NCBI GenBank assembly: GCA_001512965.1
Contig: LFRW01000022.1
Span: 1 to 62,108, forward strand
Direction: 5' to 3'
Length of the DNA stretch: 62,108 bases
Origin: Methanomicrobia archaeon DTU008
Lineage (GTDB): Archaea; Thermoplasmatota; Thermoplasmata; Methanomassiliicoccales; Methanomassiliicoccaceae
This document shows, piece after piece, positions 36,188 through 43,089 of the stretch. Numbering within the stretch: position 1 is the stretch's first letter; every line of letters begins with the position of its first letter. The position numbers and the translations under genes were made by a program. A model generated the notes under the pieces. The model was not told where the DNA came from and did not search any database. It worked only from the letters and a program-made list of their open reading frames with translations.

Positions 36188-36203
36188 AAATATTGCAATA
36201 TTT
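36188..36203 (+). promoter_or_regulatory. Palindrome over the TATA region of the hdrA-metF operon
   Basis: AAATATTGCAATATTT is a perfect 16-bp palindrome, 23-38 nt before the GTG at 36226, so it covers the expected TATA box. A protein bound here would block transcription. Its half, AATATTGC, recurs twice at the folD promoter. Confidence 0.55.
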
Positions 36204-36225
36204 TTGGAAGCCGGGAGGCCGGTCG

Positions 36226-37224
36226 GTGAAGAGCAGCGGCGATGGAGTTCTGATAATTGGTGGAGGGGCGGCAGGCTGTGCAGCCGCCGCGGAGCTGTCC
36301 CGCCACGGGATTCCATCCACGATCGTGGAGGCATCGGAGAGGCTGGGAGGTCTGGCAGGGTCCCATTGCTGCAAGAGCACCGATCGCTGCGAGCGCTGCG
36401 ACGCCTGCGCTCCCATAGATGTCCGAAGGGAGGTCCTGAACTCTGCGAACGTGACCGTGCTGACGTCGTCCAGGGTCTTCGCCGCTGAGGAGGATGGAGC
36501 GGGGCTGCTCGTTCGAATCTCGAGGCCGGAGGGCGTGGCCGAGATGCGATTCGATTCCGTCATCGTGGCGATCGGCGCCACTCCCTTCGACCCCGCCCTC
36601 GATTCCCGACTAGGACATGGTTCGGTGCCCGGAGTGCTATCCTCCCTGGAGGTGGATCGAGCGGTTCGCGAGGGCTCGTTCCATATCCCAGACGGGTCCA
36701 GCCTTGCGGTGGTATTGTGCGTCGGGTCTCGGGACGTCGTTCGCGGTGCGCCATACTGCTCCAAGGCCTGCTGCAAGTATGCGTACCACCTGACCAGACA
36801 CCTGCAGTCCGCGAACGACGGTCTGGCCGTCACGTTCTTCTACATGGACTGGCGGCCTCTGGACGGGGACCTGTCCGCGCTCTGCCGATGGGGCATGGCC
36901 GGAACGAGGACCGTCCGCTCCCGGCCCGCCGAGATCGTGGAGAGGGATGGCCGTCCTGTCGTGCGCTATGCCGACCCGATGGAATGCCTGCGAGAGGATG
37001 CGTTCGATATGGTGATGCTCGCGGTAGGCATGCTGCCGCCACGGGACAACGAGGAGCTGGCCGCGATCCTGGGGGTCCCCCTGGACGACCTTGGCTTCTT
37101 CCTTCCTGACAACGGCAGGGTGCTGGCGGCGGGGTGCTGCACCGGACCCAAGGACATCGATGAGAGCGTCAAGGAAGGCATCGCCGCCGCCGGCAGGGCG
37201 ATGGCGATCATGGAGGGGCCATGA
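36226..37224 (+). CDS. HdrA-like flavoprotein, first subunit
   Basis: A 332-residue protein matching the FAD-binding core of HdrA. It shows VLIIGGGAAGCAAAAELS (FAD site), a Cys group HCCKSTDRCERCDAC, the HdrA signature VGSRD-x-YCSKACCKYAYHLT, FFYMDWRPLDGDL, and AAGCCTGPKDIDESVKEG near the end. HdrA bifurcates electrons in methanogens and in some acetogens. The GTG at 36226 has GGGAGG 7 nt upstream. The N-terminal and C-terminal ferredoxin parts of a full HdrA (about 650 residues) are missing here and a second gene follows with a 4-nt overlap. Confidence 0.82.
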   Translation: MKSSGDGVLIIGGGAAGCAAAAELSRHGIPSTIVEASERLGGLAGSHCCKSTDRCERCDACAPIDVRREVLNSANVTVLTSSRVFAAEEDGAGLLVRISRPEGVAEMRFDSVIVAIGATPFDPALDSRLGHGSVPGVLSSLEVDRAVREGSFHIPDGSSLAVVLCVGSRDVVRGAPYCSKACCKYAYHLTRHLQSANDGLAVTFFYMDWRPLDGDLSALCRWGMAGTRTVRSRPAEIVERDGRPVVRYADPMECLREDAFDMVMLAVGMLPPRDNEELAAILGVPLDDLGFFLPDNGRVLAAGCCTGPKDIDESVKEGIAAAGRAMAIMEGP

Positions 37225-38213
37225 GGACCGTGGTGATCGCGGGGTGCGGAACCGAGGCGCGGACCGTGGCAGACGAGGTGGTCCGGCAGGGAGGGAGGGC
37301 AGTCCTGCTGTGCAAGGAGCCATCCGGCATCGCCGACCGGCCGAACGGCCGCATGGAGGTGAAGGCGTCGAGCCTGATCGCGGTCCGAGGAGCGCCAGGA
37401 AGGATGACCGCCGTGACTGAGGATGGAGATGTGGAGTGTTCCTCTGTGATCGTCGCGGACGAACCGGCGTCAGTGGCCCTCATGCCGTGGACGACGCCCC
37501 TTCGAAGCCTGCCAGAAGGCAGGGGGCCGAGAGGAACTGTCGTCTTGGACCTTCGCGGAGGGCCCGACCGCCGGGGGAGGGCCCATGCGCTGGAGGCAGC
37601 GATCGAAATGCTGGCCGATGGAACGAAGGTCGTCGTCCTGGTCGATGAAGTATTGGCGTATGGGCACGACGAGCTGCTGTATCGCCAGGCCCAGCAGGCC
37701 GGAGCGCTGTTCATACGCCCCCTAGCGGTCGAGCGGGAGGGGCAGCGCATGGATGTCATGGACAGCATCAGCGGCGCCATCATCTCCATCTTCCCCGACA
37801 TGGTCGTGTCCGAGACCGCTGTGAACCAACCCTGCACAGACCGGGGATCGGTCAGCATGGGGCCGCTGTCCACCTATCGCCGGGGCGTCCTGAGGCTGCG
37901 TGCGAACCTGCTCGAGGACGAGCTAAGGACGGAGGCCCGGGCCGCCGCTGCGATCGCCCTTCGTCCTCCTGCGGAGATGCCTCGTCCGGCAATGGTGGAT
38001 GAGGGGAAATGTTCAGCTTGCCTGACCTGCGTGCGTATCTGCCCGTTCCGCGCGGCCTACATGAACGCCGATGGGAAGGCCCGCATAGACGGCGACAGGT
38101 GCATGGCCTGCGGCAAGTGCGCAGCGGCCTGCGCCGGCAAGGCCATCGCATTGCCCGGTAGCACCGATACGGATCTTGACGCCCGCATCGTGGCTGCCAT
38201 GGAGGGAGAATGA
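37221..38213 (+). CDS. HdrA-like second subunit with ferredoxin domain
   Basis: A 330-residue protein with a degenerate N-terminal Rossmann region (VVIAGCGTEARTVADEVV), the HdrA-like middle (EVLAYGHDELLYRQAQQAGALFIRP), and a C-terminal ferredoxin pair: CSACLTCVRICP and CMACGKCAAACAG. It corresponds to the rest of HdrA, as if the FAD core were duplicated and split between two genes. It couples to hdrA1 (ATGA) and to the MvhD-like gene. It would pass electrons between the flavin subunit and ferredoxin. The exact path is inferred. Confidence 0.75.
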   Translation: MRTVVIAGCGTEARTVADEVVRQGGRAVLLCKEPSGIADRPNGRMEVKASSLIAVRGAPGRMTAVTEDGDVECSSVIVADEPASVALMPWTTPLRSLPEGRGPRGTVVLDLRGGPDRRGRAHALEAAIEMLADGTKVVVLVDEVLAYGHDELLYRQAQQAGALFIRPLAVEREGQRMDVMDSISGAIISIFPDMVVSETAVNQPCTDRGSVSMGPLSTYRRGVLRLRANLLEDELRTEARAAAAIALRPPAEMPRPAMVDEGKCSACLTCVRICPFRAAYMNADGKARIDGDRCMACGKCAAACAGKAIALPGSTDTDLDARIVAAMEGE

Positions 38214-38611
38214 ACAAGGTAGTGACACTGATATGCTCCGCTGCACTGGGTGCTCTGGAGCTTGCCAAGGAGAACGATATCGTCATCACAGACACGGCAG
38301 TGGTGGAGGTCCCCTGCTCTGGCCGAGTGGACGAGGCGACCATATTGAGAACGTTGAGGCAGGGCGCGCAGGCGGTCCTGGTGGTCGGGTGCCTCGCAAG
38401 CAATTGCCGCTTCAGCACCGGGAACTTCGAGGCCCACCGAAACGTCGACGAGGCAAAGCGGATCCTGGAGGAGATAGGCCTGTCGCCTTCCAGGGTAGAG
38501 ATGGTCGAAGTGTCCTCGGCCCAGTACATGAAGCTGGTCGAAGCGATGGAGATGATGGCGGACAGGGCCGGAGAGCTGGGGCCGATAAGACTGCTGGAAG
38601 GAGACCCATGA
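38210..38611 (+). CDS. MvhD/FlpD-like electron-transfer subunit
   Basis: A 133-residue protein of the MvhD/FlpD family, which carries a [2Fe-2S] cluster and links HdrA to an electron donor. The PCSGRVDEATIL and VGCLASNCRFSTGN motifs are present. The N-terminal CxxC of usual MvhD is reduced to one Cys (LICSAALGALELA). It lies between the HdrA-like genes and metV, with ATGA overlaps on both sides. The pattern equals the acetogen MetFV-HdrA-MvhD arrangement. Confidence 0.85.
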   Translation: MNKVVTLICSAALGALELAKENDIVITDTAVVEVPCSGRVDEATILRTLRQGAQAVLVVGCLASNCRFSTGNFEAHRNVDEAKRILEEIGLSPSRVEMVEVSSAQYMKLVEAMEMMADRAGELGPIRLLEGDP

Positions 38612-39294
38612 TAATCGCCGAGAGGAAGGGGCTCGATCGGATCATCGAGATGCTTGATGGTCGCCGTTCCATACTGGTGGCAGGATGCCGCTCATGCGTT
38701 TCCGTGTGCCAAGCGGGAGGGGAGAGAGAGGTCGTCGCGCTGGCCGAGGCGCTGCGATTGCATGCCGCCTCTAAGGGGATGGACCGGAGCATCGATACAG
38801 TCACGATAGAGAGGCAATGCGAGAAGGAATGGGTCATGGAGATCGCGCCGCTCATCGAGGGGAAGGACGCGATACTGTCGATGGCGTGCGGCGTCGGAGC
38901 CCAGATCATGCAGCAGGCCTTTACCGATGTCCAGGTGTTCCCTGGATTGAACACGGAAGGCATGGGGGCCCCCGAGGTGCAGGGAGTCTACGAGGAGAGA
39001 TGCGGCGGCTGTGGCGATTGCGTGCTCCACCTGACGGGCGGCATATGCCCTGTCGCCCGTTGCTCGAAATCCCTCCTCAACGGACCCTGCGGAGGCTCCC
39101 AGGATGGAAGATGCGAGATCGATCCGGAGAAGCCCTGCGCATGGGACATGATATATCGATCGCTTGTCCGCCTCGGACGGCCAGACCTGCTGGAGATCAA
39201 CATACCGCCCAAGGACTGGTCGCATTCGCATCATGGGGGGCCACGCCGCGTGGTCAGGAAGAGGGCCGTGCTGAGCGAGGAGGAAGTCGCATGA
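38608..39294 (+). CDS. metV: MetV-like zinc/iron-sulfur partner of MetF
   Basis: A 228-residue Cys-rich protein homologous to MetV of acetogens. It has ILVAGCRSCVSVCQAGG near the N-terminus, CGGCGDCVLHLTGGICPVARC, and the C-terminal signature LLNGPCGGSQDGRCEI then CAWDMIYRSLVRLGR. MetV binds MetF and iron-sulfur clusters, allowing electrons from other donors than NADH to reduce methylene-THF. The ATG at 38608 overlaps the mvhD stop, and metF follows with the same overlap. Confidence 0.88.
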   Translation: MIIAERKGLDRIIEMLDGRRSILVAGCRSCVSVCQAGGEREVVALAEALRLHAASKGMDRSIDTVTIERQCEKEWVMEIAPLIEGKDAILSMACGVGAQIMQQAFTDVQVFPGLNTEGMGAPEVQGVYEERCGGCGDCVLHLTGGICPVARCSKSLLNGPCGGSQDGRCEIDPEKPCAWDMIYRSLVRLGRPDLLEINIPPKDWSHSHHGGPRRVVRKRAVLSEEEVA

Positions 39295-40205
39295 CGGATT
39301 GCCGCAGCAATCTGCAGCGAGTTCTGGATTCTGGTAATTTCGCCGTGACTGCCGAGATAGGGCCCCCGAAATCGGCCAGCGGCGAAGCCGTCCAGCGTCG
39401 CGCCCGGTTGCTGAAAGGTCATGCCGATGCGTTCAACCTGACAGACAACCAGACCGCGACGGTCCGCCTCAGCAGCATGGCATCGGCCGTTCTGTGCATG
39501 CAAGAGGGCGTAGAACCGGTCTTGCAGATGACCTGCCGGGACCGAAACCGCATCGCCCTGCAATCCGATCTGCTCGGCGCCGCGTCGCTGGGCATACGCA
39601 ATATACTATGCCTGTCCGGAGACCATCCGAGGTTCGGCAACCAGAAAGGAGCGAAGGGCGTTTACGATCTGGACCCGGTGCAGGAACTTATGGTGTTCCG
39701 CATGATGAGGGACGAGGGCAAGGTATGGGGAGGGGACACCCTCGAGCAAGCGCCACAGGTGTTCCTGGGGGCGGTCGCCAATCCTTTCGCCGACCCTCTC
39801 GATCTTCGCGCCGTGCGTCTGGCGAAGAAGGTCGATGCTGGCGCTGAGTTCGTGCAGACCCAGGCGGTGTTCGACCTTGACCGGTTCGAGAGGTTCATGA
39901 AGCAGGTCAGGGAAAGGCATCTGGATGAAAGGGCGCACATCCTGGCAGGAGTCATACCATTGCGCTCCGCCGGAGCTGCGCGTTACATGAGGGACCGGGT
40001 TCCGGGCATGTCCGTACCCGATGAGGTCGTCGATCGTATGAGCAAGGCTGCGGATCAAAGGGATGAGGGCATCGAAATATGCCTGGAGACCATAGAACGT
40101 CTGCGGTCGATCGAGGGAGTGCATGGCATACATATCATGGCAATAGGATGGGAAGATATCGTGCCAGAGATAGTGGATAGATCCGGCCTGTCGCAACGCC
40201 CCTGA
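39291..40205 (+). CDS. metF: Methylene-THF reductase MetF
   Basis: A 304-residue TIM-barrel flavoprotein. Motifs are TAEIGPPK at the N-terminus, MTCRDRNRIALQSDLLGA, and LCLSGDHPRFG (FAD/substrate loop). The ATG at 39291 is fixed by the ATGA overlap with metV and by the protein's natural beginning; a longer frame upstream lies inside metV. It reduces methylene-THF to methyl-THF. It ends the hdrA1-hdrA2-mvhD-metV-metF operon. A weak GATGT/ACATC stem lies just after the stop. Confidence 0.9.
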   Translation: MTDCRSNLQRVLDSGNFAVTAEIGPPKSASGEAVQRRARLLKGHADAFNLTDNQTATVRLSSMASAVLCMQEGVEPVLQMTCRDRNRIALQSDLLGAASLGIRNILCLSGDHPRFGNQKGAKGVYDLDPVQELMVFRMMRDEGKVWGGDTLEQAPQVFLGAVANPFADPLDLRAVRLAKKVDAGAEFVQTQAVFDLDRFERFMKQVRERHLDERAHILAGVIPLRSAGAARYMRDRVPGMSVPDEVVDRMSKAADQRDEGIEICLETIERLRSIEGVHGIHIMAIGWEDIVPEIVDRSGLSQRP

Positions 40206-40302: not shown

Positions 40303-40389
40303 TCAACCGTTGATCGGGAAGCCCCAGTTGATCGCGATGTAGGTGAACGCTATCACCGCGAACGCCTTCAGATAGGTAAAGCTGAACAT
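40303..40389 (-). CDS. 28-residue hydrophobic miniprotein, copy 1
   Basis: A tiny gene coding 28 residues, MFSFTYLKAFAVIAFTYIAI followed by NWGFPING. The middle is hydrophobic enough for one membrane helix, with a conserved W-G-F-P end. The ribosome site AAGGAGGTGA (40405-40396) is a perfect 10-base match to the anti-SD, 6 nt from the ATG. A near-identical copy lies 213 nt upstream. The promoter has ATAAATA and a TATC-N6-GATA palindrome. No family is recognised. Conservation of protein ends with silent third-base changes between copies shows that both are translated genes. Confidence 0.8.
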   Translation of the reverse strand: MFSFTYLKAFAVIAFTYIAINWGFPING

Positions 40390-40450
40390 TCCTTTTCACC
40401 TCCTTTTTCACTTTCCCCACCGGGGTTGCTCCTATCTTGGGAGATAATAG

Positions 40451-40474
40451 TATTTATGGTTATCTAATTAGATA
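40451..40474 (-). promoter_or_regulatory. TATA box plus TATC-N6-GATA palindrome, copy 1
   Basis: Minus strand: the perfect palindrome TATCTAATTAGATA (40461-40474) ends 3 nt before ATAAATA (40451-40457). The identical arrangement is found before the second miniprotein. The site is placed just upstream of TATA, where activators act. Confidence 0.6.
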
Positions 40475-40601
40475 CTTAGGATATACCTCTCCTGATTGAT
40501 GCCTTGACGATAAAAATACCAAGGACGCCGTCAGGGGAGAGGAACTACGAAGAGAAAATGTATAGAAAAAATCAAAAAAGGATTTCGATCCCTTTGGCGG
40601 C

Positions 40602-40691
40602 TCAGGTCACAAAGTTCGGGAATCCCCAGTTGATCGCGATGTATGTGATCGCGATCACTGCAAATACCTTCAGATAGGTAAAGCTGAACAT
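40602..40691 (-). CDS. 29-residue hydrophobic miniprotein, copy 2
   Basis: Codes 29 residues, MFSFTYLKVFAVIAITYIAI followed by NWGFPNFVT. It matches copy 1 at 23 of the first 25 positions and differs only in the last residues and at two hydrophobic positions. The AAGGAGGTGA ribosome site (40707-40698) is again perfect and 6 nt from the ATG. The encoded peptide would be a single membrane-spanning helix with a W-G-F-P end. It is upstream of copy 1 and has its own promoter, so the pair arose by tandem duplication including the promoter. Confidence 0.8.
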   Translation of the reverse strand: MFSFTYLKVFAVIAITYIAINWGFPNFVT

Positions 40692-40763
40692 TCCTTTTCA
40701 CCTCCTTTTCGTTTTTCCCACGATTTTTTCCTACCGGGAGTGATGATTCCTTGGAACGTCTGC

Positions 40764-40787
40764 TATTTATCCCTATCTCTAATGATA
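40764..40787 (-). promoter_or_regulatory. TATA box plus TATC-N6-GATA element, copy 2
   Basis: Minus strand: TATC and GATA (40774-40787, inner bases TCTAAT on the plus strand) lie 3 nt from ATAAATA (40764-40770). Spacing from palindrome to TATA equals copy 1, while the inner bases differ, as expected for a bound dyad. Confidence 0.55.
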
Positions 40788-40936: not shown

Positions 40937-42913
40937 TTAGCACGTCTCGAACTCTAGCAGCACCCCTCCGATGGCCAGCTTCCCCTCACCGAAGACGAAG
41001 GAGCTGTCGTCAAGGTACAGTTCCTGTCCCTCGAGGTAGATGAGGAATGCGTCGATGTGTACCACGACCTCCTCGCAGCCGAAGCAGAAGTACAGGTCGT
41101 CATGGTCGAAGGCGCTGTCAGCAGACTCGAGGGTCATCTCCCTGACCTCTCCCTGTGCGCACTTGGAGGTGTCGACATGGATGGCCAGATCGAAGTACTC
41201 GGCGTCGCAGAAGCAGTCGTTGGACCAGACCATTCCGCTGAAGTGCAGGTCGGTGTACACATCAATGGTGCTCCTCTCAGCCGTGTTGGTCACAACGACC
41301 GTCTGGCAGTAGGAGAACGCGGTCTCGACGTAGAGGGTGGAGCACTCACCGAACGGGAGCTCATCGCAGCTCTCCATCTCAGCGACGGTCTCGATCGTGA
41401 TCACGTCGGGATAGAGAGGCAGGAAGAGGGGGGCGTATGCATAGACGCCGTCGACTCCCGCATCGTCGTCATAGTTGCAGATCTCGACGTAGGCCTGGTT
41501 GCGGAACATGAAGTTGGCAAGGCCAGCGAGCTCTAGGTCGTCGATGGTGAAGGTCACCTCATACGGGTAGTAGAAGCACTCTCCAGGGAAGAGCATGGGC
41601 TTGCAGGAGGTGTCGACCTCGACGCAGGCGATGTCCACCCAGTTGTCACCATCGAAGGCAGCCATGGACACATCGGGTTCGATGCAGAGCATCTGTATGG
41701 TGTCGATGATCCTCAGCCCGTCAGTGGGGTAGCAACCGGTGTTGGTGACCTTGATGGCCCCAGCCACGGTCAGGGTGTGCACGTCGTCGGTGCACTCGAC
41801 CTCTATGATCCTGGGCTCGATGCTGTTCTCATCGATGGGTCCCTCGCCGATGTATACAAGCTCCTCAGGGTCTGCCTCGTATCTGATGTACTCGGTCCAG
41901 TAGGTCACAGCAGCGGTCTTGTCGACGCAGAGGGTGGTCTCATCATCGCCAGTGTAGACGATCAATGGGGCCTCAGCGAACAGGCACTGCATGGTGTCGA
42001 GCGGCATCAGAGTGACCTGGTTGGCGATGCAGAAGGTGCAGAGCCTTGGTGCCTCGCGGTTCTCCAGGAGGAACTTGACGCAGATGTCCCACTCATTGCA
42101 CTCGTTTCCACCGAGCACCCATGGGCCGACATCGGTCAGCGGTGTGGCGGCGAACCCAGCTGGAATGCTGAAGTAGTCTTCGATCTCAGCGCACTCGTCG
42201 ACGAATATGCAGTCCATCTTGCACGGCAGGTCAAACTCGGCGCACGCCTGGACTCCGCAAGCGGATCCGACGTTCCCCTCGAGGTTGGTGATGGTCACGT
42301 CAGCGACGTTGCGAAGCTCGCACTCGATCCACTCGCTGCCGAACAGGACCTCGTAGCAGTAGGTGTAGCACTCGCCGGCCTGCAGGACAGGCTTCGCGCT
42401 GACGTCCACGCAGACGGTAGCGATGTCAACGAAGCAGCAGCCGTTCCATGCCTGGACGGTGTCGGTGATGGCAAGGCCCTCAGTGGGGCTGGACCCAGTG
42501 TTGGTGACGGTGATGTAACCACGGACGCCGAACACCTCATCAACACAGACATACCTGTCGACATGTATGTTGTAGGACAGTTCGACACATTCACCGGGCT
42601 CGATCTGCATCTCACAGACGTCCTCTTCAAGGCACTTCTCGATCTCCCAGCTGTATACAGTTCTCTTCTCCCAGAATCCAGTAGCGGTCTTGGTGGCCGT
42701 TATCGTGGTTGCTGATGGTACAGGGTTGTTGGGTGTTTCATCTATAGGGTCCTCCCCCCCTGTCTGGGGGTCGTTCACCCCTGGAAGATTGTTCTTATCC
42801 CCCTCATCCGCACTCCCTGTGGAGAGCGGGCCCTGATCCAATGCCACCACGAAGGCGGTCATTACGATCGCTAGAGCTACCGCTAGGGCAGCTATCTTGC
42901 TTGCTTTCTTCAT
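40937..42913 (-). CDS. Secreted Cys-rich acidic repeat protein
   Basis: A 658-residue protein with a signal peptide (MKKASKIAALAVALAIVMTA, cleaved near residue 25), a Gly/Pro/Asp-rich linker, and then about 580 residues of beta-type sequence rich in Asp, Glu and Cys (37 Cys in all). Three modules recur, at about residues 136 (VTNTGSSPTEGLAITDTVQ), 388 (VTNTGCYPTDGLRIIDTIQ) and 541 (VTNTAERSTIDVYTDLHFS), like DUF11-type cell-surface domains. No C-terminal anchor is present. It is probably a disulfide-linked surface or S-layer-associated protein. GGGGGG lies before the ATG. Confidence 0.8.
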   Translation of the reverse strand: MKKASKIAALAVALAIVMTAFVVALDQGPLSTGSADEGDKNNLPGVNDPQTGGEDPIDETPNNPVPSATTITATKTATGFWEKRTVYSWEIEKCLEEDVCEMQIEPGECVELSYNIHVDRYVCVDEVFGVRGYITVTNTGSSPTEGLAITDTVQAWNGCCFVDIATVCVDVSAKPVLQAGECYTYCYEVLFGSEWIECELRNVADVTITNLEGNVGSACGVQACAEFDLPCKMDCIFVDECAEIEDYFSIPAGFAATPLTDVGPWVLGGNECNEWDICVKFLLENREAPRLCTFCIANQVTLMPLDTMQCLFAEAPLIVYTGDDETTLCVDKTAAVTYWTEYIRYEADPEELVYIGEGPIDENSIEPRIIEVECTDDVHTLTVAGAIKVTNTGCYPTDGLRIIDTIQMLCIEPDVSMAAFDGDNWVDIACVEVDTSCKPMLFPGECFYYPYEVTFTIDDLELAGLANFMFRNQAYVEICNYDDDAGVDGVYAYAPLFLPLYPDVITIETVAEMESCDELPFGECSTLYVETAFSYCQTVVVTNTAERSTIDVYTDLHFSGMVWSNDCFCDAEYFDLAIHVDTSKCAQGEVREMTLESADSAFDHDDLYFCFGCEEVVVHIDAFLIYLEGQELYLDDSSFVFGEGKLAIGGVLLEFETC

Positions 42914-42982
42914 TCAAACCCCCCTTGAAAGTGTTTGCGATGTTTGTTGGGAGCAATTATCTAAAAAAGGTTTCTATGAAAA

Positions 42983-43007
42983 AGAGATAATAATATCAAT
43001 TAAGATA
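42983..43007 (-). promoter_or_regulatory. TATC-N6-GATA element before the Cys-rich protein gene
   Basis: TATCAATTAAGATA (42994-43007) is a third TATC-N6-GATA dyad, 81 nt before the start codon (72 and 83 nt for the miniproteins). The TATA-like TTATTATC follows at 42990-42983. This suggests one regulator for all three genes. Confidence 0.5.
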
Positions 43008-43089
43008 ACAGTTCCGCCCAGGTCCATATCCAGAGCCAGATCGTTCTACGAACCCTTGTGGGCAAGAAAAAACAGTGGGATGGTGATAT

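Follow-up and report, generated by a model that had tools for sequence, protein, structure and literature searches.

The nearest working analogue of the locus described here is the SlaA/SlaB pair of the Sulfolobales, in which a secreted, beta-rich coat protein lacking a membrane segment is combined with a separately encoded anchor (PMC6911244). SlaB possesses beta-sandwich and coiled-coil domains in addition to its transmembrane helix (PMC6911244). In micrographs, the Methanomassiliicoccus-type envelope is composed of a thin dense layer and a thick transparent layer, and its make-up is uncharacterised (PMC5628862, PMC4243693).

The window, meaning the whole 62,108-nucleotide stretch of DNA that was analysed, comes from a methanogen of the Methanomassiliicoccales in whose genome mcrA is present. 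It encodes two tandem miniproteins directly beside a putative surface protein, SLP. Compared with SlaB, the miniproteins consist of a helix only, are twinned, and have their own promoter each. We propose, at somewhat short of an even chance, that both miniproteins are made in very large amounts and serve SLP either as membrane anchors in trans or as its obligate partners in the membrane.

Twin miniprotein genes

The two genes are the following:

40602 to 40691, minus strand: miniprotein gene copy A, 29 aa (ORF, homologues in 6 of 6 genomes of the genus, purifying selection)
40303 to 40389, minus strand: miniprotein gene copy B, 28 aa (ORF, homologues, base differences from copy A)

Copy A is translated as MFSFTYLKVFAVIAITYIAINWGFPNFVT and copy B as MFSFTYLKAFAVIAFTYIAINWGFPING. 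A preliminary description of this DNA had reported twin hydrophobic peptides with an N-W-G-F-P end. This description holds in its main points. The peptides are indeed tandem, membrane-type twins, but NWGFP is not terminal and is followed by a variable tail of 3-4 residues (NFVT or ING). The 24 codons that the two copies share contain 8 base differences, of which 6 are synonymous, in keeping with the earlier remark that third-base changes mostly leave the protein unaltered.

For the 9 copies of the genus that can be aligned, pS averages 0.59 and pN 0.13 in the annotated frame. This contrast is gone in the other frames, one of which was scorable in only 7 of 36 pairs. Under a random-substitution null, equally few amino-acid changes arose in at most 0.25% of trials for 4 of the 6 tested pairs. 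The fifth pair, which differs at just 3 bases, gave 10% of trials, and a synonymous excess was absent between G000B and G004B (58% of null trials). The purifying selection on the miniproteins indicates that they evolve as coding genes; their codon usage is too short a sample for judging expression. The miniproteins are real, conserved, and of membrane type. They appear to be single-helix microproteins that would insert into the membrane.

The preliminary description had proposed a search for relatives as a check. A peptide-profile search recovered the family in all six genomes of the genus (g1), with twins in G000, G001, G003, and G004 and a single copy in G002 and G005; a convincing match was present in 0 of the 141 other genomes of the order. 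A lack of conservation, which the preliminary description had named as refuting its reading, is therefore not what is seen. Records carrying the gene include RumEn M1, UBA345, UBA386, and two more Euryarchaeota MAGs. Weak profile matches outside the family, in G383 and G028, were rejected as antisense to other genes, and two viral-contig pattern matches were attributed to chance. The peptides had no matching family in Pfam, NCBIfam, PHROG, or PDB.

In six genomes of two other genera of the family, g3 and g4, the slot after SLP is in every case occupied by a hydrophobic peptide of 27-34 aa with a similar Shine-Dalgarno (SD) site (for example, MFEMVYFTGSVIFLAATWTYVRMKAGRR and MFALPYSFFYSTGVVFFAAWTTIAASGWLPFF), and this peptide is twinned in three of them (G007, G008, and G009). 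Genus g3 appears to be Methanomassiliicoccus itself. The g3 and g4 peptides are scarcely alike to the window's twins (hhalign probability 3.9%).

Promoters, 5' regions, and Shine-Dalgarno sites

Each copy is its own unit, composed of a strong TATA promoter, a C/G hairpin, an open SD, and the peptide:

40764 to 40782, minus strand: BRE/TATA-type promoter of copy A (TTAGAGATAGGGATAAATA; conserved alignment columns)
40716 to 40739, minus strand: hairpin predicted at the 5' end of the copy A transcript (fold at the inferred start site)
40698 to 40707, minus strand: Shine-Dalgarno site of copy A (complementarity to 16S over 9 contiguous bases)
40451 to 40467, minus strand: BRE/TATA-type promoter of copy B (TTAGATAACCATAAATA; conserved alignment columns)
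40415 to 40425, minus strand: hairpin predicted at the 5' end of the copy B transcript (CCCCGGTGGGG; fold at the inferred start site)
40396 to 40405, minus strand: Shine-Dalgarno site of copy B (complementarity to the 16S 3' end)

A promoter/5'UTR model matches copy A at 40689-40782 (E 2.2e-13) and copy B at 40387-40471 (E 1.6e-16). Among the 147 genomes of the order, it recovers exactly 20 copies. The worst E of these is 2.4e-12 and the next match has 4.6e-4; as the model was built from the same 20 copies, their scores carry no weight here, and the result is that no further copies appear. The 5' regions are alike across the genera (AGATAAnnATAAATA, a C/G hairpin, and GGAGGTGA). The regulatory sequence of the microprotein is better conserved than the peptide, and such genes would escape protein searches. 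Weaker model matches (0.03-0.07) lie just upstream of SLP in G007 and G009, a hint that SLP may be co-regulated with the miniproteins.

Transcription starts were placed by TATA spacing, at 24 bases counted from the TATA end, and the predicted start falls on the C/G hairpin in 20 of 20 copies. The first 24 nt have a mean fold energy of -7.1 kcal/mol, versus -2.0 in shuffles. The hairpin is based on per-sequence folds at a fixed position and not on covariation; RNAalifold did not find a consensus structure on an ungroomed alignment of the 5' regions. Each mRNA is thus predicted to begin with a hairpin, which is followed by a short purine-rich stretch that carries the near-perfect SD and then by the peptide.

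Both twins carry AAGGAGGTGA, then 6 nt, and then ATG, with the equal spacing that had been noted before. Theirs are the only exact AAGGAGGTGA sites within the window. Across the 1.76-Mb genome, AAGGAGGTGA-N3-9-ATG occurs at just 5 sites, two of which are the twins, and a reversed-pattern control gave 0 sites genome-wide. The 16S 3' end of the genome is GGATCACCTCCTA, so contiguous anti-SD pairing spans 9 bases, AGGAGGTGA, and not the 10 originally described. In folding predictions, the SD is unpaired with a probability of 0.53-0.99 across the 20 copies. The signals for very high expression seen in the preliminary description, a near-perfect SD and now also a strong promoter, are present, and judging by them the twins are probably very strongly translated and expressed.

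A third miniprotein copy with a complete promoter/hairpin/SD unit was observed in G009, far from SLP (G009:C5:151079; L119 8080). This stand-alone copy indicates that the unit can move as a cassette.

The neighbouring surface protein and its linkage to the miniproteins

The proposed partner is encoded next to the twins:

40937 to 42913, minus strand: SLP, a 658-aa secreted all-beta surface protein (synteny, hydropathy, AlphaFold2)

SLP lies immediately upstream of the miniproteins, on the same strand, in 6 of 6 genomes of the genus. Its orthologues in g3 and g4 have 36-42% identity, and the SLP-miniprotein synteny covers 12 genomes. Hydropathy gives one strongly hydrophobic segment, at the N-terminus, and no transmembrane segment after the signal; a strongly hydrophobic C-terminal segment is absent from all SLP orthologues. 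Behind the N-terminal segment, A35-D36-x-G38 is nearly invariant and would be a fitting site for signal peptidase, and the signal peptide is presumably cleaved. The AlphaFold2 model is a nearly all-beta chain (pLDDT 77, pTM 0.50), for which a fold search returned generic multi-Ig matches only (query TM-score 0.06-0.15). By sequence, SLP matches DUF11-type repeats, though weakly and short of the curated cut-off. Secretion, the all-beta fold, and these weak repeats are the reasons for calling SLP S-layer-like, and it is likely the coat protein of this archaeal family.

Several further observations concern the SLP gene. Its own 5' region is strongly conserved between the window (42914-43010) and G001-G004 (CATAGAAACCTTTTTTAGATAATTGCTCCCAACAAAC ... 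CAAGGGGGGTTTGAATG). This region lacks a canonical SD and may form a CAAAC/GTTTG hairpin. In five g3 genomes (L083, L084, L085, L086, and L087), the codon that aligns to the initiating ATG of SLP is ACG, and an in-frame upstream ATG, GTG, or TTG is absent from 4 of these 5 loci; the ACG is possibly a conserved non-AUG start of the surface protein. In G003 (RumEn M1), SLP is split into two frames near residue 214 (L013 around 5925), which is either a sequencing error or a real frameshift. Elsewhere in g1 (G002:C10, G004:C1; L089, L090) there are larger SLP paralogues, open frames of 755-1078 aa in which SLP-like domains are repeated, and the searches used found no miniprotein gene near them.

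SLP and the peptide are present together in 12 genomes and missing together at 3 intact sites. The joint absences are in G010 (g3), G006 (g2), and G017 (another family), where the flanking genes are intact and adjacent; at the empty site of G010, PDDEXK and metF are ~120 bp apart. G013 is uninformative, its locus being missing from an incomplete assembly, and G017 has a partial SLP relative elsewhere in the genome. This pattern indicates that SLP and the peptides are gained or lost as a single block, the third copy in G009 being the exception.

On the other side of the twins, a metF-type reductase, a DUF5981 partner, and an Fe-S protein (window 36193-40205) form a block that is conserved in most of the family and missing beside SLP in G001 and G005. 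A functional link to metF was rejected because the miniprotein genes remain in G001 and G005 without metF there. A leader peptide or attenuator was also rejected, the gene downstream of the twins (metF, plus strand) being convergent.

A relative of the miniproteins is fused to another protein in G008. This genome encodes a 655-aa secreted protein with a signal peptide and a parallel beta-helix (PF13229), at the C-terminus of which a Pro-rich linker is followed by PYSFYYSSGVVFFASWTTVA and a tail. Over 27 aa, the fused segment shares 63% identity with the free-standing miniprotein of G008 (E 1e-12, single comparison), and it occupies the position expected of a membrane anchor in a displayed protein. 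The sole fusion partner is this beta-helix protein, not SLP.

Possible roles of the miniproteins and comparison with known systems

The preliminary description had offered two roles, a subunit of a membrane complex or an envelope component. In the SLP context, an envelope component fits best; a subunit of an ordinary membrane (energy) complex is not supported, as genes of this kind are not linked to the twins across the genomes. The decisive context beyond that description is the unanchored SLP, the shared promoter/5'UTR unit, the occurrence of this unit in other genera with different peptides, and the fusion. As membrane anchors, the twins would act as follows. SLP would be exported and its signal peptide removed, after which no membrane segment would remain. 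The 28-aa helices would be made in a large, duplicated amount from short mRNAs with a 5' hairpin and an open near-perfect SD, and these helices, in the membrane, would hold SLP there.

Topology is the main difficulty of the anchor model. Positive-inside charges predict N-out/C-in for the g3 peptides (KAGRR tail), whereas for the twins of the window, with K8 alone, they favour N-in/C-out. Anchors should conserve their topology, so the opposite predictions count against anchoring. The strong divergence of the peptides between genera, the lone G009 copy, and a fusion that is not to SLP also stand against it. An uncleaved SLP signal would itself anchor the protein and would thus argue against an anchor in trans.

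The anchor proposal can be extended to a coat with minimal 28-aa trans anchors, in which the lattice protein and the transmembrane helix are encoded by separate genes. The anchor gene would be present in two over-translated copies, and its sequence would change from genus to genus behind a fixed promoter/5'UTR. This extension is less likely than not. If true, the coat anchor would be an unusually small one encoded by a separate gene. The SLP-miniprotein module offers two concrete candidates for the Methanomassiliicoccus-type envelope.

Modulation of larger membrane machinery is a common role of small membrane proteins. The linkage to SLP and the joint presence and absence would also fit if the miniproteins regulated SLP or helped in its export or assembly (acting on the translocon, oligosaccharyltransferase, or signal peptidase) and were not a structural anchor. 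However, the duplicated genes and their signals for very high expression suggest a stoichiometric and not a catalytic role, and the beta-helix fusion puts the segment in a displayed protein; we regard such a role as unlikely. Somewhat less probable again is an independent, abundant component of the envelope or membrane, structural or pore-like, that is merely encoded and regulated beside SLP. The third G009 copy, with its full regulatory unit away from SLP, is consistent with such a component, as is the outer membrane suggested for M. luminyensis (PMC4243693), whereas the joint absence with SLP at three intact loci and the fusion to a surface protein argue against it.

Enzyme-subunit, toxin, and viral explanations are less likely than these two. 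In size and hydrophobicity the peptides would suit a CydX- or KdpF-style subunit of a membrane-bound enzyme or transporter, but no gene for either is a constant neighbour across the compared genomes, and they have no significant Pfam/NCBIfam profile match to known small membrane subunits; this role is quite improbable. Type I toxins usually have restrained translation, through antisense RNA or mRNA structure. Being tandem, short, hydrophobic, and intergenic, the miniproteins resemble several bacterial type I toxins (PMC8309996), but toxin-like peptides silenced by antisense RNA are very improbable given the strong promoter and open near-perfect SD in 20 of 20 copies and the fixed linkage to SLP. 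A spike and a small membrane protein are a known viral gene pair and the SLP-miniprotein module comes and goes as a unit, but a domesticated viral envelope pair is the least probable explanation, with no PHROG match below E 0.05 for the peptides, only chance matches in viral contigs, and no viral genes alongside.

As candidate anchors or membrane partners of SLP, the miniproteins can be set beside several described systems. Like archaeal C-terminal transmembrane/PGF-CTERM anchors, they have a short stretch of hydrophobic residues, accompanied in g3 by a basic tail, and one relative (in G008) is likewise C-terminal on a secreted protein. Unlike these anchors, they are free-standing genes, and no NCBIfam CTERM family matched them at E 1 or E 10. 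CydX and KdpF are similar in having ~30 aa and one hydrophobic helix, but the miniproteins are linked to a surface protein and not an enzyme, and a profile match is lacking. Ldr, Ibs, and TisB are also tandem small hydrophobic intergenic peptides; the miniproteins differ from them in the open near-perfect SD and the fixed linkage to one surface-protein gene. SLP itself is a candidate S-layer protein, which would be secreted and beta-rich and would form a surface lattice; its signal-like N-terminus, all-beta model, and weak DUF11-type repeat are the features observed. The domains that define SlaB are absent from ORFs of 28 and 29 aa with one hydrophobic stretch, and the miniproteins are therefore not SlaB-type members. 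Their linkage and joint presence and absence with SLP would fit a separately encoded membrane anchor of an S-layer protein.
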